This document shows positions 21,512-34,093 of a DNA stretch of 40,170 bases, one piece after another. This stretch comes from a virus, in IMG/VR virus record IMGVR_UViG_3300027749_000221, positions 1-40,170 of that record. One strand, given 5' to 3'. Position numbers and translations under genes: made by a program. The notes beneath the pieces are model-generated. The model saw only the letters and a list, made by a program, of their open reading frames with translations, did no database searches and was not told the origin of the DNA. The stretch's first letter is position 1. Each line of letters begins with the position of its first letter.

Positions 21512-21708
21512 CACACACCTCCAAACGGTATAAGGAAATCACAGGCTTCATCGTTGGTATAGTTCAGCTCAACACTGGCGTCCATAAAAAACTGGTAAGG
21601 ACTGCTATCTAACTCGATGGTCAGGTATCGCTGGCATATGTTCTTCTGATCGCACTTACTGCCTACACACCTAGATGTGTCAGTATTCAGGGGTATTTTC
21701 ATTTTCAC
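21511..21708 (-). CDS. small three-Cys early protein, copy B
   Basis: 65 aa: MKMKIPLNTDTSRCVGSKCD...CQRYLTIELDSS, paralogous to the 67-aa protein at 19225 over the first ~33 residues with the same C-x4-C-x5-C spacing, but with a different C-terminus (ACDFLIPFGGV). The start lies 29 nt inside the HTH gene, with AGGAGATAACTGTGAAAATG as ribosome site. Function unknown. Confidence 0.7.
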   Translation of the reverse strand: MKMKIPLNTDTSRCVGSKCDQKNICQRYLTIELDSSPYQFFMDASVELNYTNDEACDFLIPFGGV

Positions 21709-21955
21709 AGTTATCTCCTATACCAATATAATCTCCCACTCTGGGAGGCGTTTCACCTACCGCTTTACGGTAGTAGTCTTGCATTGCCATACCCTCCCAT
21801 CCATCATGCCAGCCGACAGGTACAGGCTTAGTTTCCTGCTTTACCGTGGATAAAGTACTCCTTGTTGTGCCTGTTTTTCTTGCTATGTCGGCAAGGCTAA
21901 AGCCTTTGCTGTAAAGCACCTGAAGAATTAAAGAGTAATCAATATCTCGCACCAC
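21680..21955 (-). CDS. small helix-turn-helix protein
   Basis: 91 aa. Residues about 19-40 (FSLADIARKTGTTRSTLSTVKQ) form a clear HTH (ADIARKTGTTRSTLS). The C-terminal half (VPVGWHDGWEGMAMQDYYRK, VGETPPRVGDYI) resembles a tail found with other small phage HTH proteins. GTG start with GGGAGG seven bases upstream; it overlaps the upstream gene by 17 nt. Likely DNA-binding regulator of early genes; the target is not visible, though the divergent region at 23084-23204 is a reasonable candidate. Confidence 0.7.
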   Translation of the reverse strand: MVRDIDYSLILQVLYSKGFSLADIARKTGTTRSTLSTVKQETKPVPVGWHDGWEGMAMQDYYRKAVGETPPRVGDYIGIGDNCENENTPEY

Positions 21956-25082: not shown

Positions 25083-25571
25083 ATGCTTACTCAGCAGCTA
25101 TTAAAAGATTTATTACATTATGATCCTGATACAGGCGTATTCACTAATTTAGTTAATCGCGGTAAAAGAGCTTTGATTGGCGATCAAGCAGGATATTTAC
25201 ACCCTACGGGATACGTTAAAATTGTGGTTAACCGTAAGCTTTATCGCGCTCATCGTTTAGCGTGGCTTTATATGTATGGAGTTTGGCCTAAAGATCAGCT
25301 AGACCATATCAATAGAATCAGAGATGACAATCGGATTAATAATTTAAGAGAAGCTTCTAATTCTGAAAACCTTCAAAATATGTCTTTAACTTCACGCAAT
25401 ACATCGGGTTATAAAGGCGTTAGTTGGAATAAACGGGAGCGTAAATGGTACGCCAGGATTTATTTAAATTATAAGGAAATCTATTTAGGCTATTTTACTA
25501 ATTTAGATGATGCTGTCGCAGCAAGAAAACAAGCAGAAGAACAATTACATCCTTATAGGCGCGTAGCATGA
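25083..25571 (+). CDS. HNH endonuclease with AP2 DNA-binding domain
   Basis: 162 aa. HNH core: YRAHRLAWLYMYGVWPKDQ, then LDHINRIRDDNRINNLREAS (His of DHIN). The C-terminal AP2-type domain is SGYKGVSWNKRERKWYARIY then YLGYFTNLDDAVAARKQAEE. Free-standing phage homing endonuclease, of a different subtype from the one at 16138. It lies between the ssDNA-binding-type gene and the polymerase, with its own terminator/promoter/leader upstream. The stop overlaps the polymerase start (ATGA), so it is translated with it. Confidence 0.85.
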   Translation: MLTQQLLKDLLHYDPDTGVFTNLVNRGKRALIGDQAGYLHPTGYVKIVVNRKLYRAHRLAWLYMYGVWPKDQLDHINRIRDDNRINNLREASNSENLQNMSLTSRNTSGYKGVSWNKRERKWYARIYLNYKEIYLGYFTNLDDAVAARKQAEEQLHPYRRVA

Positions 25572-27445
25572 CTATGCTATTTATCGATTTTGAAACAAAG
25601 AGCGCCTGTGACTTGAAGAAGCATGGGGTTTACAATTACGCGCAAGACAGAAGCACTGAGGTGCTGTGCATGTCTTACGCATTTGATGATGACGTTCTAA
25701 CTTGGACACCGGATCAACCATTTCCTGAGGCTGTCAGAAATTACAAAGGTGAGATACGCGCGCATAGCGCTACCTTTGAGCGCCTAATTTTTTGGTATGC
25801 GTTAGGCATTAACTTTAAGCTGGAACAATTCTACTGCACGGCTACCCAAGCTAGGGCTAACTGCCTCCCCGGTAGTCTTGAAGATATTGGTAGGGCTATG
25901 TCCGCTAAGATGAAGAAAGATCATCGAGGCAAACAGCTAATCCGTCAGTGTTGCGTTCCTCCTTATAATACTGCGTTATTGCCTGAGCTGATTCATTACT
26001 GTGAACAAGACGTGCGGGCTATGCGTGAGATTAGTCTAGCGCTACGTCAGTTAGATGCTGATGAACTGCTTGACTATCATATTAATGAGCGCATCAACGA
26101 TAGGGGTTTGCTAATCGATGTGCCGTTATGTCATGCTGCTATTGGTTACGCTACGGCTGAACTGGAGGACATCCAGACGTTAGTGAAAGATATTACAGGT
26201 ATTAGCTCGGCTAGATCGCCAAAGCTTAAACAGTGGGTAGCTGACCGTATGGATCCTGAACTGATGATGGTTGAGGATAAGTTGTCACTCAACAAAAATG
26301 TTCGTACTGCCTTACTGCAACTTGATCTACCTGATGAAGTATTAGATGTTGTTCAATGTATCGATGACATTAGTGCTTCCTCGGTGGCTAAGTTCAAGCG
26401 TATGGGTGAGCTGGCTGACGTTGAAGATCACCGCGTCCGTGGTGCGTTTGTTTTTAATGGTGGCTCGGCTACTGGCCGTGCTTCATCGTATGGCGTTCAG
26501 CTTCAGAACATGGCTCGTGTGTGTGCTAAAGACCCTGTTGCGGTGCGTAAAGCTATGATGGCTGGTGATTCCTTAAGCGCGTTCGGCAATCGTGTGACAG
26601 ACGTGCTGAAGGGCATGATACGTCCTGCTATCATCCCTGCACTCGGCAATGTTCTGATCGTAGCTGACTGGGCGGGTATTGAAGCACGGTGTAATCCTTG
26701 GTTATCTAATCATGTGGCCTCGGAAGCTAAGCTGGACATCTTCCGATCCGGTGGCGATGTGTATGTCGAGAACGCTAAGTCAACTTTCAACACGAAAGAA
26801 GTCACCAAAGAGCAACGTTTCATTGGTAAGGTGCAAGAACTCGCTTTAGGTTATTCCGGTGGAACTGGCGCTTTTGCGTCAATGGCTAGAATCTATGGGC
26901 TTAACATGCCCGAATACCAAATCAAGCGCATGATTAATGGGTGGCGTGTGGCTAATCCGTGGTGTATCCCGTATGGCCAAGAGTTAGAGCGCGCTTACAT
27001 GAGCGCAATGCGTCATAAAGGGCATGAGTTCTCTGCTGGTCGGGTAACGTATTTGTTTGATGGTGAGCATCTGTGGTATATTCTTCCGTCTAGGAGAGTG
27101 TTGAATTACCCATTCGCTCGGATTGAAGATGGCGCTGTCACTTACCTTAAAGCCGCGTTCAAGCCTGCTTCTGACGCTGTTGAATGGCCTCGCGCTAGAC
27201 TATGGCAAGGTATAGCACAAGAAAACTGCGCTCAAGCTACTGCAAATGATTTATTAAGGTATTCACTTCGGCAGTTGGATGGCGTTATAGCGCACATCCA
27301 TGATGAAATCGTTGTCGAGTGTAGAGAAGATGAAGCTGAAAACATAACAAAAAGAATGACATCCAGCATGTGCAGTGCGCCAGTTTGGGCTGAAGGACTA
27401 CCACTGGATGTCGAAATAGCAACAATGTATCGATATGGAAAATAA
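25568..27445 (+). CDS. DNA polymerase, family A, with 3'-5' exonuclease
   Basis: 625 aa. Exonuclease motif I FIDFETKS (D7, E9), later HSATFERLIFWYA and YCEQDVRAMREI (Exo III-like). Polymerase motif A VLIVADWAGIEAR (Asp near 367; the usual DYSQIELR is altered), motif B RFIGKVQELALGYSGG (about 417-432), motif C IAHIHDEIVVE (HDE near 578). Replicates the phage genome. The length and compact exonuclease are typical of phages with DUF2800/VRR-NUC/SNF2 cassettes. Overlaps the HNH stop and the primase-helicase start, giving a tight operon. Confidence 0.92.
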   Translation: MTMLFIDFETKSACDLKKHGVYNYAQDRSTEVLCMSYAFDDDVLTWTPDQPFPEAVRNYKGEIRAHSATFERLIFWYALGINFKLEQFYCTATQARANCLPGSLEDIGRAMSAKMKKDHRGKQLIRQCCVPPYNTALLPELIHYCEQDVRAMREISLALRQLDADELLDYHINERINDRGLLIDVPLCHAAIGYATAELEDIQTLVKDITGISSARSPKLKQWVADRMDPELMMVEDKLSLNKNVRTALLQLDLPDEVLDVVQCIDDISASSVAKFKRMGELADVEDHRVRGAFVFNGGSATGRASSYGVQLQNMARVCAKDPVAVRKAMMAGDSLSAFGNRVTDVLKGMIRPAIIPALGNVLIVADWAGIEARCNPWLSNHVASEAKLDIFRSGGDVYVENAKSTFNTKEVTKEQRFIGKVQELALGYSGGTGAFASMARIYGLNMPEYQIKRMINGWRVANPWCIPYGQELERAYMSAMRHKGHEFSAGRVTYLFDGEHLWYILPSRRVLNYPFARIEDGAVTYLKAAFKPASDAVEWPRARLWQGIAQENCAQATANDLLRYSLRQLDGVIAHIHDEIVVECREDEAENITKRMTSSMCSAPVWAEGLPLDVEIATMYRYGK

Positions 27446-29744
27446 AATGAACTTTATTGACTACCTAATTAGTATAGCTCCTTCTGAAGAAACAGTATTA
27501 TTCGTTAAGCAAATTCCTAAACCTGATCTTTTTCATGCAGATGGAGCGCAAAAATGCACATGGCCTGCCTATCTTCCTTCTAAGTATGACGGTAAAGGTG
27601 CTTGGTATTGTAACACCGCCAGCTTCATCCTCAAACGCTTTAAAGACGGCAAACCGAGTGCTTCTGCAACTAATTGTGAGTTGGTGGCGTTCTTGGTGCT
27701 GGACGATGTTGGTACGAAATCAAAAATTCCTGATCTAGCACCGACTTGGATCATGGAAACCTCGCCTGGCAACTATCAATATGGCTACACCTTTAGCCTT
27801 GAAGATCAACCGACAAAAGGAAATTTCAGTGCAGCTATTAAATCTATTGCTAGTGCGGGCTATACAGATGGTGGGGCTATTAATGCTGTGCGTAATTTTC
27901 GGCTTCCAAACAGTGTTAATCATAAGCCTGATCGTGGCGGCTTTCTTTCTCGGTTAGTGTCGTTCAATCCTGAAAGAGAGTTCACCCTTCCGCAAATCTG
28001 TGACGCATTAGGTGTTACTCCTGCGGAAGCAGACACCGCCAGCGTGAAGCGTATCGACTTATTAGATGATGGCACTGATGACGTGCTGACTTGGCTTGTT
28101 GGGCGTGGTGATGTCATCGAGGGTGCTAATGGTGAAGGCTGGGTTGGAGTGACGTGCATCAACGCTGGCGCTCACTCGGACGGTAATCCTATGGCGCGGT
28201 ATCATCCGGTTAATCGCTCTTACATGTGCTTCCATGAGTCCTGCCAACATCTTGACAGTAAGACCTATCTTGAGTGGGTACAGGCTGAAGGAGGGCCTAA
28301 GCATACACATGGCTTGCGTGAAGAATTGTTAGCGTCAGTTATGAATGACACCCTAGCCAAGTTAGAACCGTCCGACATGTTCACTAATGATGCAATTACC
28401 GCCATCGCTGAAGTAGATCGTAAGGAGTTAGGCAGACTGGAAAAAAAAGACTGGTTTAGCAGGTTTGCGTACATCCAAGTGGATGAGTCCTATTTTGACT
28501 TGCAAGCTAGACGTGAAGTCAGCAGGGCTACTTTCAACGCCTTGTTTCGTCATGTTGAGTGCAAGTCCATACACTCAGGCCGTAAGATAGAAGCGTCTAT
28601 TTGCTATGACGAGAACAGACAAGCGATGGGCGCTCATGCTTTAGTTGGCATCACCTATGCGGCAGGCGATACGATGCTGACCGCGCTTGATGGTGACATG
28701 TACGGTAATCGCTGGCGTGACGCACGTCCTGATGTGTCGGGTAAAGCTGGCAATGTCACCCGTTGGCTTGACCACTGCAAGACCTTAGTGCCTAATGAAG
28801 CTGAATTGGCGCATATCTTCAACGTCATGGCGTATAAAGTACAGCACCCTAACGTTAAGATCAACCACGCCATTCTGCACGGTGGCGATCAAGGAGCTGG
28901 AAAGGATACCATGTACGCGCCGTTCATTTGGGCGGTGTGTGGCCCTCACCTTAAGAACCGAGGCTTGGTTGATAACGATGGTATTGCTTCACAGTTTGGT
29001 TACGCCCTTGAGTCAGAAATCCTTATCATTAACGAACTAAAAGAACCGGACGCTAAAGAAAGACGTTCGTTAGCCAACAAACTCAAGCCAGTCATTGCAG
29101 CGCCACCAGAAACCTTAACGATCAACAGGAAGGGCTTGCACCCGTATGATATGGTCAATCGTATCTTCGTGCTAGCGTTCTCTAATGATCCCGTCCCTAT
29201 TCAGTTGGAGTCACAAGACAGACGATGGTTCTGCGTTTGGTCACACGCCCCTCGCATGTGTCCGGAAGAAGCACGGTCTATGTGGGACTGGTTCAAGACC
29301 GGAGGCGGCTATGAAGCCATAGCGTCTTGGTTGCTGGTGCGCGACGTTAGCGCGTTCAACCCTGGTGCTACACCCATGATGACGGAGTTCAAACTGAACC
29401 TAGTTGAGCAGGGCATGTCAACTGCCGAGTCGTACCTAGTTGACTTGATGCGCTTGCGTGTCGGAGAGTTTGCATCGGGAGTGATAGCGTCTCCCTTCCA
29501 TGCGCTTTGTGATCGTTTAGCTAATAGCGCACCAGGTAATGTTAAGGTTCCTCAAGCTGCACTACTTCACGCCCTTAAAGAGGCTGGCTGGAATGATATG
29601 GGCCGTATTGCATCAAGGGAATTTACCACACAAAAACATATTTACACCGCCCCTAATGACGAAGCAATTAACGCGCTGAGTAAGTCAGACCTTAGAAGAA
29701 TGGTTGAGCCGGACAGAAACAGAAAATTGACACTTGTCAATTAG
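27435..29744 (+). CDS. primase-helicase (RepB-like primase, Zn motif, SF3 helicase)
   Basis: 769 aa. Residues ~85-165 (LVAFLVLDDVGTK, WIMETSPGNYQYGY, AVRNFRLPNSVNHKP) resemble archaeo-eukaryotic/RepB-type primases, the Asp pair being the likely metal site. Residues ~240-285 have a C/H-rich patch (VTCINAGAH, MCFHESCQH). The C-terminal helicase has Walker A GGDQGAGKDT (about 482-491), Walker B EILIINELKE and RIFVLAFSNDPVPIQ, as in DUF5906/VapE-like SF3 helicases. Supplies priming and unwinding for the adjacent polymerase. Starts 11 nt inside polA; an ATG at 27447 is an alternative start. Confidence 0.8.
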   Translation: MENKMNFIDYLISIAPSEETVLFVKQIPKPDLFHADGAQKCTWPAYLPSKYDGKGAWYCNTASFILKRFKDGKPSASATNCELVAFLVLDDVGTKSKIPDLAPTWIMETSPGNYQYGYTFSLEDQPTKGNFSAAIKSIASAGYTDGGAINAVRNFRLPNSVNHKPDRGGFLSRLVSFNPEREFTLPQICDALGVTPAEADTASVKRIDLLDDGTDDVLTWLVGRGDVIEGANGEGWVGVTCINAGAHSDGNPMARYHPVNRSYMCFHESCQHLDSKTYLEWVQAEGGPKHTHGLREELLASVMNDTLAKLEPSDMFTNDAITAIAEVDRKELGRLEKKDWFSRFAYIQVDESYFDLQARREVSRATFNALFRHVECKSIHSGRKIEASICYDENRQAMGAHALVGITYAAGDTMLTALDGDMYGNRWRDARPDVSGKAGNVTRWLDHCKTLVPNEAELAHIFNVMAYKVQHPNVKINHAILHGGDQGAGKDTMYAPFIWAVCGPHLKNRGLVDNDGIASQFGYALESEILIINELKEPDAKERRSLANKLKPVIAAPPETLTINRKGLHPYDMVNRIFVLAFSNDPVPIQLESQDRRWFCVWSHAPRMCPEEARSMWDWFKTGGGYEAIASWLLVRDVSAFNPGATPMMTEFKLNLVEQGMSTAESYLVDLMRLRVGEFASGVIASPFHALCDRLANSAPGNVKVPQAALLHALKEAGWNDMGRIASREFTTQKHIYTAPNDEAINALSKSDLRRMVEPDRNRKLTLVN

Positions 29745-30092: not shown

Positions 30093-30251
30093 CTAAGGTG
30101 TATCGTTAAAATGTTTGGTTAAAAGGTACTGTATCAATTTACTTTTATTTTTCATATCTTTTAACCGCCGCACTTGCCACCTTTTTAAGCTAAAAGTTGC
30201 AAGTATGTTTTTTTCATCATCTGGTATTGATGGTCTACCTGGTAACTTCAT
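30093..30251 (-). CDS. small ribbon-helix-helix-like protein, 52 aa
   Basis: MKLPGRPSIPDDEKNILATF then SLKRWQVRRLKDMKNKSKLI. The strand-helix-helix pattern (ATFSLKRWQVRRLKDM...SKLIQYLL) and basic character fit an Arc/CopG RHH DNA-binding protein. Strong ribosome site AGGAGA eight bases before the ATG. Last gene before the terminator. May regulate early promoters such as the one at 31375. Confidence 0.6.
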   Translation of the reverse strand: MKLPGRPSIPDDEKNILATFSLKRWQVRRLKDMKNKSKLIQYLLTKHFNDTP

Positions 30252-30394: not shown

Positions 30395-30949
30395 TTATAA
30401 CCTACAAGGCATGATTACGTAAATAATGTCGTTTGCTTTAGCAGGCATAAAATAACCGGCCAGCTCAAAACTATATAATCTTTTAGGCGTGGTATTATCA
30501 AAATATTTACCTATCGCATCATTAGCAATGGCTACATATGCCCAGTCGAATTGATGTTGGATAGAGTTTAAATTTTTATCGTGGTCATTTAACTTGATAG
30601 GGTCAATTATCTTTTTAAACCCCGGATATACATGATCAATAGGCGTAAATACTTCGACTTGGTTCATACATTGCAGCTGGTATTGATTATTAATTAATGC
30701 GATGTTACATTCCATGTTTTCATGTTTTGTTCCAACTTTTTTTAATAAAGCTTTAATCGTATCACCTGGCACGATAAGATGCTCATGCTCGGATGGAATA
30801 CTGTTGGCATAGGTGTATAAATGGCATAGCATATGACCATTTGATCCGGTAATATGTGTTGTAGTGATGTTTAATCCGTTAAGATAAAACCTTGTATCCG
30901 GTTTTTTAGGTGTTGCGCTTAGTGCCAGTCTTAAGTCTTTAATTTTCAT
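30395..30949 (-). CDS. beta sliding clamp-like phage protein
   Basis: 184 aa. MKIKDLRLALSATPKKPDTR, FYLNGLNITTTHITGSNGHM, LIVPGDTIKALLKKVG and VFTPIDHVYPGFKKIID match the layout of one DnaN-like clamp module (GHML, IPxxTIKALL, PIDxxYPxxxxII). Bacterial clamps have three such modules (~370 aa); this has about one and a half. It could act as a minimal clamp or a clamp mimic for the phage polymerase. Leader has (ACTAA)n and AAAAGAGAAACTAAAATG. Confidence 0.5.
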   Translation of the reverse strand: MKIKDLRLALSATPKKPDTRFYLNGLNITTTHITGSNGHMLCHLYTYANSIPSEHEHLIVPGDTIKALLKKVGTKHENMECNIALINNQYQLQCMNQVEVFTPIDHVYPGFKKIIDPIKLNDHDKNLNSIQHQFDWAYVAIANDAIGKYFDNTTPKRLYSFELAGYFMPAKANDIIYVIMPCRL

Positions 30950-31343: not shown

Positions 31344-31374
31344 AGTTTTTCTCTTTTTGGTTGATGTGGGTTAA

Positions 31375-31403
31375 ATAATAAAACTATTTAGTTTTAATGT
31401 AAA
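31375..31403 (-). promoter_or_regulatory. sigma70 promoter of the small early - strand operon
   Basis: On the - strand: TTTACA (31403-31398), exactly 17 nt, TATTAT (31380-31375); start near 31368, 25 nt before the 63-aa gene. The first iteron (31425-31440) lies just upstream of the -35, well placed for a regulator. Confidence 0.75.
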
Positions 31404-31424
31404 TAAATCTTTTACAAATATTTG

Positions 31425-31756
31425 TGTATGCAATGTAAGTTAAATGTAAGCAGTCAAAATAGGTGTAATTGCATACACGCGCGCCCATTATTGGCGGGGC
31501 TTTAAACCTATTGTATATAATGTAAGTAGATAGTTAATACTTTAATTTTTAAAATAATATAATATAATAGTTTTATTATTACAGGAAAAAAATGTTATCA
31601 GCCACCGACTTTTTTTTGATGCAAACATTGCTTACATTGCATACATTTTAAAATGCCACGCTTACTGGTCCCATCTAATGTATGCAATGTAAGCTATCAA
31701 AAACAAATAGCTTACATTGCATACATTTTTAATCGTGTACTAAATCGTGGCATTTT
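31425..31756. other. iteron cluster, candidate replication origin or operator
   Basis: A 16-mer TGTATGCAATGTAAGC occurs exactly at 31679-31694 (+), 31630-31645 (-) and 31710-31725 (-), with T as last base at 31425-31440 (+), and as TGTATATAATGTAAGT at 31512-31527. Parts occur at 31443-31452 and 31465-31478. An AT-only-like tract (31531-31580) lies among them. AAAATGCCACG (31650-31660) and CGTGGCATTTT (31746-31756) form an outer inverted repeat. Repeats plus an AT-rich segment in a gene-free region next to a promoter fit an origin or a multi-site operator. A 19-codon ORF at 31592 with AGGA before it is probably chance. Confidence 0.65.
31677..31727. repeat. perfect inverted repeat with 20-bp arms
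   Basis: Arms AATGTATGCAATGTAAGCTA (31677-31696) and its exact reverse complement (31708-31727) separated by 11 nt (TCAAAAACAAA). It contains two of the iterons head to head. Could form a cruciform or bind a dimer of dimers. Confidence 0.9.
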
Positions 31757-32142
31757 ATAAAGCACCGATGCAAAACATTAATGATAACAATAACTTGCGA
31801 TGCTATTCAAGTCCTGTCTCCGGTCTTGAATGGGTACCAGACTCAATACTCAAACCCTAAACTGTATATGATTCAATAGCTTAGACTAGAATGGTATGGC
31901 ATAACATATCTCGGTATGTTTGATGGGGGGGATATAAGGGGATTTTGAACCGTCCGTTGACCATGTCCACCCCCCTCAGTAAAATTTTTTTAAAAAATAA
32001 TTAGGCACCTCAGTAAATTTTTTATTTTTTCTGGTTTTAGCTACCCGCTTAAAAATTTTTTAAAAATTAAATGGTGAAGATGTAAAAAACTTTACTACTA
32101 AATGGAAATGATGTTAAATACAACTTTACACAAGGACAGACG
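31757..32142. promoter_or_regulatory. gene-free region upstream of the terminase, partly conserved in the second copy
   Basis: ATTCAAG/CTTGAAT forms an inverted repeat at about 31806-31831. From 31925 a G7 run, then ATATAAGGGGATTTT, a C6 run (31970-31975) and CAGTAAAATTTTTTT correspond in order to 38950-39030 upstream of the second terminase copy (G run, TATGAGGGGGATTT, C5, CAGTAAATTTTTT). Conservation of this order in diverged DNA suggests a functional element, perhaps terminator or packaging signal. No clear promoter was found; the TerS ribosome site is AAGGAC. Confidence 0.5.
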
Positions 32143-32643
32143 ATGATTTCGATCCCCTTCACTCCAAGAGAAGTGCAAGCCACCGAATGGCGTTTACAAC
32201 AAATATATGACGCTGCCGCCTTGGGGCTAAAAGGTGACAAGCTTGCCTTAGCCGCAGGAATGTTACCTTCCGAATATCGACAGTTATGTCAGCTCGACCC
32301 TGTTGCTGAAATGGCAGCGTTGAAAGGCGCAGCCGATGGAGAATTGGAAGCGTCAACTCAGTTAAGAGAAGCTGCCAGAAACGGCGACGCTAAAGCGGCG
32401 CTGTCAATCCTGCAACACGCTCATGGTTGGACTGCCAAGCAAGAAATATCCATGTCAATTGAAACTATCAATATACAATCTGCCCTAGATGAAGCACGCA
32501 GTCGCGTCATGGAAAAGATGGTTGTTGATGTTCCACACGTTACACTTACAACCAAGGACATTAATGGCACAACAACCAATATACCGACCAGACGAAGAAC
32601 AAACGCTGATGGTGGAGTTATGGTCGCCAAAGATAGCGGATGA
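32143..32643 (+). CDS. terS: terminase small subunit
   Basis: 166 aa. The N-terminal helices (REVQATEWRLQQIYDAAALG, DKLALAAGMLPSEYRQLCQL) form an HTH-like DNA recognition domain. Helical middle (QLREAARNGDAKAALSILQH, HGWTAKQEISMSIETINIQS) and variable C-terminus. Recognises the packaging start on phage DNA and loads TerL. Placed right before TerL, overlapping it by 80 nt in another frame. A diverged copy lies at 39099: the first ~120 residues are about nine in ten identical, while the segment before the C-terminus differs and is 5 residues shorter. Confidence 0.85.
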   Translation: MISIPFTPREVQATEWRLQQIYDAAALGLKGDKLALAAGMLPSEYRQLCQLDPVAEMAALKGAADGELEASTQLREAARNGDAKAALSILQHAHGWTAKQEISMSIETINIQSALDEARSRVMEKMVVDVPHVTLTTKDINGTTTNIPTRRRTNADGGVMVAKDSG

Positions 32644-34093
32644 TCCCGAAGCGTTTGTGCTGTTCGTGTTCCCTTGGGGGAAGAAGAACACCCCACTAGA
32701 ACACTTTCACGGGCCGAGGAAATGGCAACGTGAAGTGCTAAGGGATATTGCTAACCATATTAAGGAGAATAAAGGTGAAATCGACATGTCAACTCTGCGT
32801 TCTGCTGTCTCCTCAGGACGGGGGATTGGTAAGTCTGCGTTAGTGGCGTGGCTAATATTGTGGATGTTGACCACACGGGTAGGCTCAACGGTGATCGTGT
32901 CGGCTAACTCAGAGAGTCAGCTAAAGTCCGTGACCTGGGGTGAACTGTCACGGTGGTACGCCATGTCGATTAACACGCATTGGTTTGAACTGTCTGCTAC
33001 TAAGATGGCTCCCGCTACATGGTTGACCACACTGGTTGAAAATCAACTGAAGAAGGGTACACGGTATTGGGGCGCAGAAGGGAAATTGTGGAGCGCTGAG
33101 AACCCTGACAGTTATGCGGGTGTTCACAACCATGACGGAATGATGCTGATCTTTGACGAAGCATCAGGTATACCTAATGAGATATGGTCGGTAGGGGCTG
33201 GTTTCTTTACTGAAAACATTCTTGATCGGTACTGGTTTGCTTTTAGTAACCCTAGACGGAATGAAGGGTACTTTTTTGAGTGCTTTCATGGAAAACGAGC
33301 GTTTTGGAAAAGTCGGACAGTGGACGCAAGAACTGTCGAGGATACCGACAAGCAAGTGTATGAGCAAATCATTGCGGAATATGGTGAAGATTCCTCCCAA
33401 GCACGAGTGGAAGTGTACGGTGAATTTCCGTCAGCGGGAGAGGATCAGTTCATTTCACCTGACATTATCGAAGATGCGTTTCAGCGTCCTCAATATAAGG
33501 ATACGACTGCTCCTATTGTTATCGGTGTTGATCCTGCACGAGGCGGGGCTGACTCAACGGTGATTGTGGTCAGGCAAGGGCGTGACATCATCAACATTAA
33601 ACGCTACTCCGGAGAGGATACGATGGCGATTGTTGGGCGAGTGATTGAGGCGATTGAACAGTACCGCCCCACACTGACGGTGATCGATGAAGGAGGGCTG
33701 GGGTATGGTATTCTTGATCGCTTGGTGGAGCAACGGTACAAGGTCAGGGGCGTGAATTTTGGTTGGAAGGCGACTAATGCTATCATGTGGGGCAACAAAC
33801 GTGCTGAGATGTGGGGAACCATGAGGGACTGGTTGAAAACTGCCAGCATTAAGGAGGATAGGCAACTGAAGTCAGATTTAATAGGGCCTATGAAGAAACC
33901 TAATTCGTCAGGTACAATCTTCTTAGAAGGTAAGAAAGAAATGCGGTCTAGGGGCCTAGCCTCACCTGACGCAGCGGATGCATTAGCGGTTACTTTTGCT
34001 TTCCCTGTCGCTCAACGCGAACAACGGGAGCAACGCGAACAACGACCAAACAATTCATCCGGGGGTAGTGGTGGTTCTTGGATGGGCGCTTAA
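32564..34093 (+). CDS. terL: terminase large subunit
   Basis: 509 aa from ATG 32564 (MAQQPIYRPDEEQ) with AAGGAC upstream; the frame opens earlier but the second copy at 39505 confirms this start. ATPase: Walker A SSGRGIGKSAL (GKS 89-91), Walker B MLIFDEASG (D198, E199). Nuclease: VIGVDPARGGADST (D323), VIDEGG (D375) and SPDAADAL (D469, D472), the RNase H-fold metal ligands. C-terminus has an (R)EQREQ repeat. Packages DNA into the prohead through the adjacent portal. All catalytic residues are present. Confidence 0.93.
   Translation: MAQQPIYRPDEEQTLMVELWSPKIADDPEAFVLFVFPWGKKNTPLEHFHGPRKWQREVLRDIANHIKENKGEIDMSTLRSAVSSGRGIGKSALVAWLILWMLTTRVGSTVIVSANSESQLKSVTWGELSRWYAMSINTHWFELSATKMAPATWLTTLVENQLKKGTRYWGAEGKLWSAENPDSYAGVHNHDGMMLIFDEASGIPNEIWSVGAGFFTENILDRYWFAFSNPRRNEGYFFECFHGKRAFWKSRTVDARTVEDTDKQVYEQIIAEYGEDSSQARVEVYGEFPSAGEDQFISPDIIEDAFQRPQYKDTTAPIVIGVDPARGGADSTVIVVRQGRDIINIKRYSGEDTMAIVGRVIEAIEQYRPTLTVIDEGGLGYGILDRLVEQRYKVRGVNFGWKATNAIMWGNKRAEMWGTMRDWLKTASIKEDRQLKSDLIGPMKKPNSSGTIFLEGKKEMRSRGLASPDAADALAVTFAFPVAQREQREQREQRPNNSSGGSGGSWMGA

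Follow-up and report, generated by a model that had tools for sequence, protein, structure and literature searches.

Initiator helicases with iteron origins are already known, and PLE RepA is a known case in which an initiator domain and its origin covary as a module (PMC8263062). In phage P4, TGTTCAC (type 1) repeats immediately follow the primase-helicase gene alpha (crr), in both orientations and with a 9-bp period. A passage of PMC4234260 that cites Yeo 2002 reports that the winged helix of P4 alpha binds the origin repeats, after which the protein unwinds and primes; the primase of alpha is a Toprim (PMC4234260). For SaPI Rep and SCCmec Cch2, the iterons lie downstream of the gene and are recognised by a C-terminal domain (PMC7581432). 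In PLE, a satellite of Vibrio cholerae, the origin and the DNA-binding domain of the initiator RepA covary and are swapped as a module, with the cognate pairing shown by swaps, and this modular switching has been linked to the evasion of a nuclease directed at the origin (PMC8263062).

Here we analyse a 40,170-bp phage contig from IMG/VR, hereafter the window, which carries P22-like head genes and a replication module comprising, among others, an exonuclease-like DUF2800 protein, a family-A DNA polymerase and a DUF5906 primase-helicase (Pfam, PHROGs). An Rfam search, a DNA-level comparison with named phages and a search of genome contigs for a host or prophage gave, respectively, no match, no match and no relative. 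The window resembles P4 in its primase-helicase, the proposed initiator, and in the 9-bp period and both orientations of its repeats, and the P4 core TGTTCAC fits the form TGTNNNC; P4 differs in its Toprim primase and in having two repeat regions (ori and crr), as against a single array 1.7 kb downstream of the gene in the window. Comparison of the window protein with P4 alpha by BLASTP gave no significant similarity (best segment 9 residues, E 0.046), and we therefore describe the protein as one that would work like P4 alpha and do not file it as a member. Its full-length model matches the NrS-1 helicase, the SaPI5 primase-helicase PriRep1 (7ola/7pds) and the S-2L AEP primase-polymerase in Foldseek; among solved structures, the helicase part is best matched by the NrS-1 primase-polymerase-helicase (6k9c; Foldseek E 7e-14, phmmer 5e-7). 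SaPI Rep, PriRep1 and Cch2, unlike the window, belong to staphylococcal elements with other iterons (AAGTG for Cch2), and their likeness to the window is structural only. PLE RepA is set apart by a RepA_N-type initiator, by two replicon groups with ~30-bp iterons, and by the exchange of a domain as opposed to the 12-residue wing of the window's protein. The nearest annotated phage is the podovirus ctNMl277 (MW202483.1), whose helicase is 52% identical to the window's and which has, downstream of the primase-helicase, a dense GTTTACGTAAAC array containing TGTTTAC (L362, 10211-10575); it differs in its wing and its word, and lies outside the groups sampled here. We argue that the array in the window is very probably the replication origin of the phage, which its own primase-helicase would bind and open.

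The Iteron Array of the Window

A sequence-only reading of the window had drawn attention to its largest gene-free region, and indeed the 799 bp from 31344 to 32142, flanked by a leftward mosaic cassette and by terS (start 32143), contain no ORF as long as 60 aa. Within this region, 1.7 kb downstream of the end of the primase-helicase gene (29744), behind the mosaic gene cassette, and 0.4 kb upstream of terS, lies an array with an A+T tract of its own (Table 1). The reported cluster of 16-mer sites is real: with up to 3 mismatches, TGTATGCAATGTAAGC has six matches in the window, in both orientations and every one inside 31425-31725, as compared with a mean of 0.61 in shuffled controls (0 of 100 reach six). 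The 16-mer does not stand as the basic unit, since it consists of two head-to-tail units (TGTATGCAA TGTAAGC) of 9 bp each. About 13 such units, some degenerate, occupy both strands from 31425 to 31727 and flank the A+T tract; the unit of the window reads TGT-AWG-CAA and the general form TGT-NNN-YAA. Of the 19 copies of the core TGTAWGC in 40 kb (14 expected), 9 lie within 301 bp. The head-to-head palindrome likewise proved exact, with arms of 21 bp (31677-31697 and 31707-31727) around a 9-bp spacer. The AT-rich tract of the same reading was also borne out and is among the richest stretches present, given that 32 of the 40115 55-mers of the window reach its composition, all of them here or near 30.2 kb.

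Table 1. Coordinates of the array and of associated features in the window.
Feature	Position	Strand	Basis
Family-A DNA polymerase, same replication module as the primase-helicase	25568..27445	+	Pfam, PHROGs
DUF5906 primase-helicase, proposed origin-binding initiator	27435..29744	+	Pfam, PHROGs, fold
Codons of residues 722-733, predicted wing tracking iteron type	29598..29633	+	Covariation; AlphaFold2 structure
Leftward sigma-70-like promoter TTTACA-17-TATTAT beside the array	31375..31403	-	Sequence; conserved form in relatives
Left cluster of 9-bp units: 31425 TGTATGC, 31434 TGTAAGT, 31445 TGTAAGC	31425..31451	+	Sequence matches
Lone unit TGTATGC	31471..31477	-	Sequence match
Degenerate double unit TGTATATAATGTAAGT	31512..31527	+	3 mismatches to 16-mer; conserved in relatives
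91% A+T tract, candidate unwinding element	31528..31582	.	Base composition; backbone conserved
Three tandem 9-bp units TGTATGC, TGTAAGC, TGTTTGC	31621..31645	-	Sequence matches
51-bp palindrome, two double units head to head (31679, 31688 on +; 31710, 31719 on -)	31677..31727	.	Sequence

Other elements of that reading fared less well. The adjoining promoter is present and takes the form TTGACA-17-TATTAT or similar in several relatives, but promoter-like sites are not enriched over the region as a whole (8 vs 5.7 +/- 2.4). The outer AAAATGCCACG inverted repeat exists, but 28 of 100 shuffles also give two such matches, and it is not conserved in relatives. The check by GC skew that the reading had suggested was run and is uninformative: the skew of the window turns where gene orientation changes, near 17-18 and 22.5 kb, and other long contigs have their extremes away from the array. 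Because it is confounded by gene orientation, GC skew is of no use as origin evidence here.

Several further features of the neighbourhood deserve mention. Between the array and terS, at 31924-31977, lies a block GGGGGG...GGGGATTTTGAACCGTCCGTTGACCATGTCCACCCCCC that is strongly conserved in relatives whichever iteron type they have; C-rich/AGTAAATTTTTT repeats come after it there, their number differing among relatives. The block is a candidate packaging or termination site. In the mosaic cassette, the 184-aa protein encoded at 30395-30949 weakly matches the DnaN sliding clamp (in Pfam, and in NCBIfam with TIGR00663 at 2.8e-5, which does not reach the cutoff) but is placed by PHROGs in a RusA-like family, and its slot is filled by other genes in relatives. 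The end of the contig (39066-40170) holds a second terS and the 5' part of terL, 79% identical in DNA to 32106-33219; either the packaging locus is duplicated or the assembly has joined strain variants.

Fixed Layout and Changing Words in Relatives

An exact search of IMG/VR with the 16-mer recovered relatives with the same array. This conservation of the 16-mer in close relatives, a test set beforehand, supports the candidacy of the region as an origin. The site spacing of 87/109/9/49/31 bp is identical in the window and three relatives (L012, L022, L029), is shared by L043/L016 and L049 except for one or two intervals, and is retained in L041 for the 49/31 part; in the alignment of relatives, the iteron sites and the A+T tract are constant and the flanking bases variable. 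A scan upstream of terS in 80 relatives gave a different picture, in that many phages with TerS 83-97% identical have no copy of the 16-mer and instead carry arrays of other words, again in 9-bp steps: TGTATCAWA in L034 and L046; TGTGYAYAA in L035, L037, L040, L044, L047, L050 and L052; TGTTAGCAA in L054; TGTAGGCAA in L082; and further words elsewhere. TGTATCAWA and TGTGYAYAA occupy the same place in phages whose TerS, PolA and helicase mostly share 93-98% identity with those of the window. Among wider relatives there are TGTTAGCAA, TGTGGACAA, TGACCCAAA and still other words, which brings the number of types to at least 12, the 12 iteron classes being our own definition from the first data set. 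Since the word differs while the layout stays constant, a specificity factor must be what changes. The L041 array combines TGTGYAYAA words in its left half, in keeping with its helicase type, with the window's words in its right half, and is either a hybrid or a chimeric assembly. In L041 and L053, an ORF of 64-116 aa upstream of terS splits the iteron array.

The number of arrays bears on an alternative in which the primase-helicase binds the array as an auxiliary cis element (an enhancer, copy control, or autoregulation of the leftward promoter) and replication starts elsewhere. We consider this unlikely, in that each of eight long contigs (8/8) has just one array and the array comes with its own A+T tract, even if P4 has both an ori and a crr, the leftward promoter adjoins the array, and GC skew shows no turn there.

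Which Protein Tracks the Word

In search of the specificity factor, 11 orthologue sets were compared column by column for type-linked positions. In the DUF5906 primase-helicase these positions are confined to residues 722-738. The sequence-only reading had stated that no initiator of a known iteron type is encoded nearby, a view that is not supported: this protein, the proposed initiator, lies 1.7 kb away and changes with the iteron word. A Rep_3-type initiator, as in iteron plasmids, has no Pfam match among the ten proteins tested around the array. The reading had named three small DNA-binding proteins as possible binders in its place, and it is very improbable that the array is the master operator of such a regulator (RHH at 30093, HTH at 21680 or AlpA-like at 21939). 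The inverted and tandem sites do adjoin a promoter, and the degenerate double site (31512) overlaps a TATAAT, but the word tracks the helicase wing and none of the three follows it. The RHH-like protein (30093-30251, 52 aa) exists in relatives as two alleles, with an ILATFSL or a MISL-type strand: the ILATFSL beta-strand occurs in three iteron types, A, B and C, and L049, of type A and thus with the window's word, has the other allele (PVMISL). Although its gene sits between the wing codons and the array, this specificity strand is independent of type. HTH91 and AlpA155 track the core phylogeny, the former with two non-clustered type-linked columns and the latter with none.

That the array is a packaging (pac/cos) site, recognised by the small terminase encoded next to it, is scarcely credible. 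Proximity to terS would favour it, but TerS, which tracks the core phylogeny, is 93-97% identical among phages with quite different words, and its type-linked columns are just two, adjacent (133-134); the few such columns of TerL and TerS do not cluster in any DNA-binding motif known to us. PolA tracks the core phylogeny as well; DUF2800, the 24323 protein, VRR-NUC and portal were rejected in the same comparison; and the small leftward genes (clamp/RusA-like, the 199-229 aa proteins and others) are mosaic, their presence independent of type.

The Predicted Wing of the Primase-Helicase

With a DUF5906 match above the Pfam cutoff and the Foldseek matches already given, the protein unites a primase and an SF3/D5-type helicase. 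AlphaFold2 models its C-terminus with winged-helix topology (mean pLDDT 76): strand 683-685, helix 688-698, helix 707-717, strand 720-725, loop 726-733 and strand 734-738. The residues that vary lie on the wing hairpin, and the second helix hardly changes (99.7% between close pairs whose types differ). The C-terminal model by itself had no significant Foldseek match, nor did profile searching against solved structures recover the origin-binding domain of P4.

The type-linked segment reads NDMGRIASREFTTQKHIYT in the window type, NDNGRLKSTDFPSQKHIYT with the word TGTATCAWA, and (N/K)DMGRLKSREFPS(Q/V)KHIY with TGTGYAYAA. The pattern of one wing, one word recurs in a wider set of 97 loci that cover both the C-terminus of the helicase and the region downstream. 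Clade-conditional mutual information ranks 726 and 731 at the top and also scores 611, 635 and 618, outside the wing, highly, the latter probably through subclade hitch-hiking. Because this measure is confounded by subclades, we relied on pairwise contrasts and on out-of-sample prediction. Pairs were compared that are ~95-99% identical over residues 1-714 and have different words. Between the window and L034, 7 of 17 differences fall in the 12 residues 722-733 (hypergeometric P=5e-10); six more near-identical pairs show a wing excess with P of 5e-4 to 6e-6, and an eighth with P of 0.02. Wing differences average 5.5 in different-type pairs vs 0.7 in same-type pairs of similar divergence. In L037 and L043, the wing segment is a short tract embedded in helicase sequence from the other clade, such as a double crossover would leave.

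Two new scans yielded 78 previously unused loci, 39 of them with a known word type. The nearest neighbour by wing predicted the word in 29 of these 39 and failed in 10, as compared with 9/39 for the core (residues 300-714), 12/39 for the tail and 6/39 for the pre-wing segment; among non-redundant new loci, the wing succeeded in 18/24 and the core in 5/24. At the level of sequence, the C-terminal domain and the iteron are thus paired by covariation and by out-of-sample prediction alike. Even the distant phage L288 joins a window-like wing, GRIASRDYTT, to TGTAAGCA units. Single residues follow single bases: R728 is present in 70/72 loci with TGT words and 0/38 with TGA/TGR words, as well as in the three loci with TG(C/A)GGG words, and K726 in 53/56 loci with G at base 4.

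Proposed Function and Significance

In view of the likenesses to P4 and to SaPI Rep/Cch2, we propose that the primase-helicase binds the array, melts the A+T tract and primes. Its predicted C-terminal winged helix would bind the 9-bp units, the conserved helix 707-717 contacting the constant part (TG...AA) and the variable wing 722-733 reading the central triplet. Multimers may form on the tandem and inverted units such that the A+T tract melts, whereupon the primase-helicase would load onto the exposed single strands and make primers for the family-A polymerase that the phage encodes.

Across relatives the wing changes in step with the repeats, which suggests that a protein-to-DNA code selects the start site of replication. 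We favour, with some reserve, a broader reading in which a large group of uncultured podoviruses has at least 12 exchangeable replicon types. Here a short wing, not the recognition helix, would read the iteron centre by nearly readable rules (R728-TGT, K726-TGTG, D731-TGTGGA), and wing and array would switch together repeatedly, like incompatibility types, perhaps in escape from origin-targeting rivals or satellites. Modular switching of this kind has its known precedent in PLE RepA/ori (PMC8263062).

What is new is the readable wing-to-iteron code. The literature open to searching contains no account of the origin of this phage group or of a residue-level wing-to-iteron code. For most uncultured phages, to our knowledge, replication origins are not known, and in this group origin and initiator can be paired from sequence alone. 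The pairing amounts to a natural mutagenesis series, with some 12 DNA words set against 12-residue wings on nearly constant proteins, and makes two matters directly testable: origin choice by a replicative helicase, and specificity switching without loss of function. The range of types extends further still, in that L333, L345, L359 and L360 combine the wing GRLHSGKYQT with ATGTATACA words and constitute a further, unclassified type.
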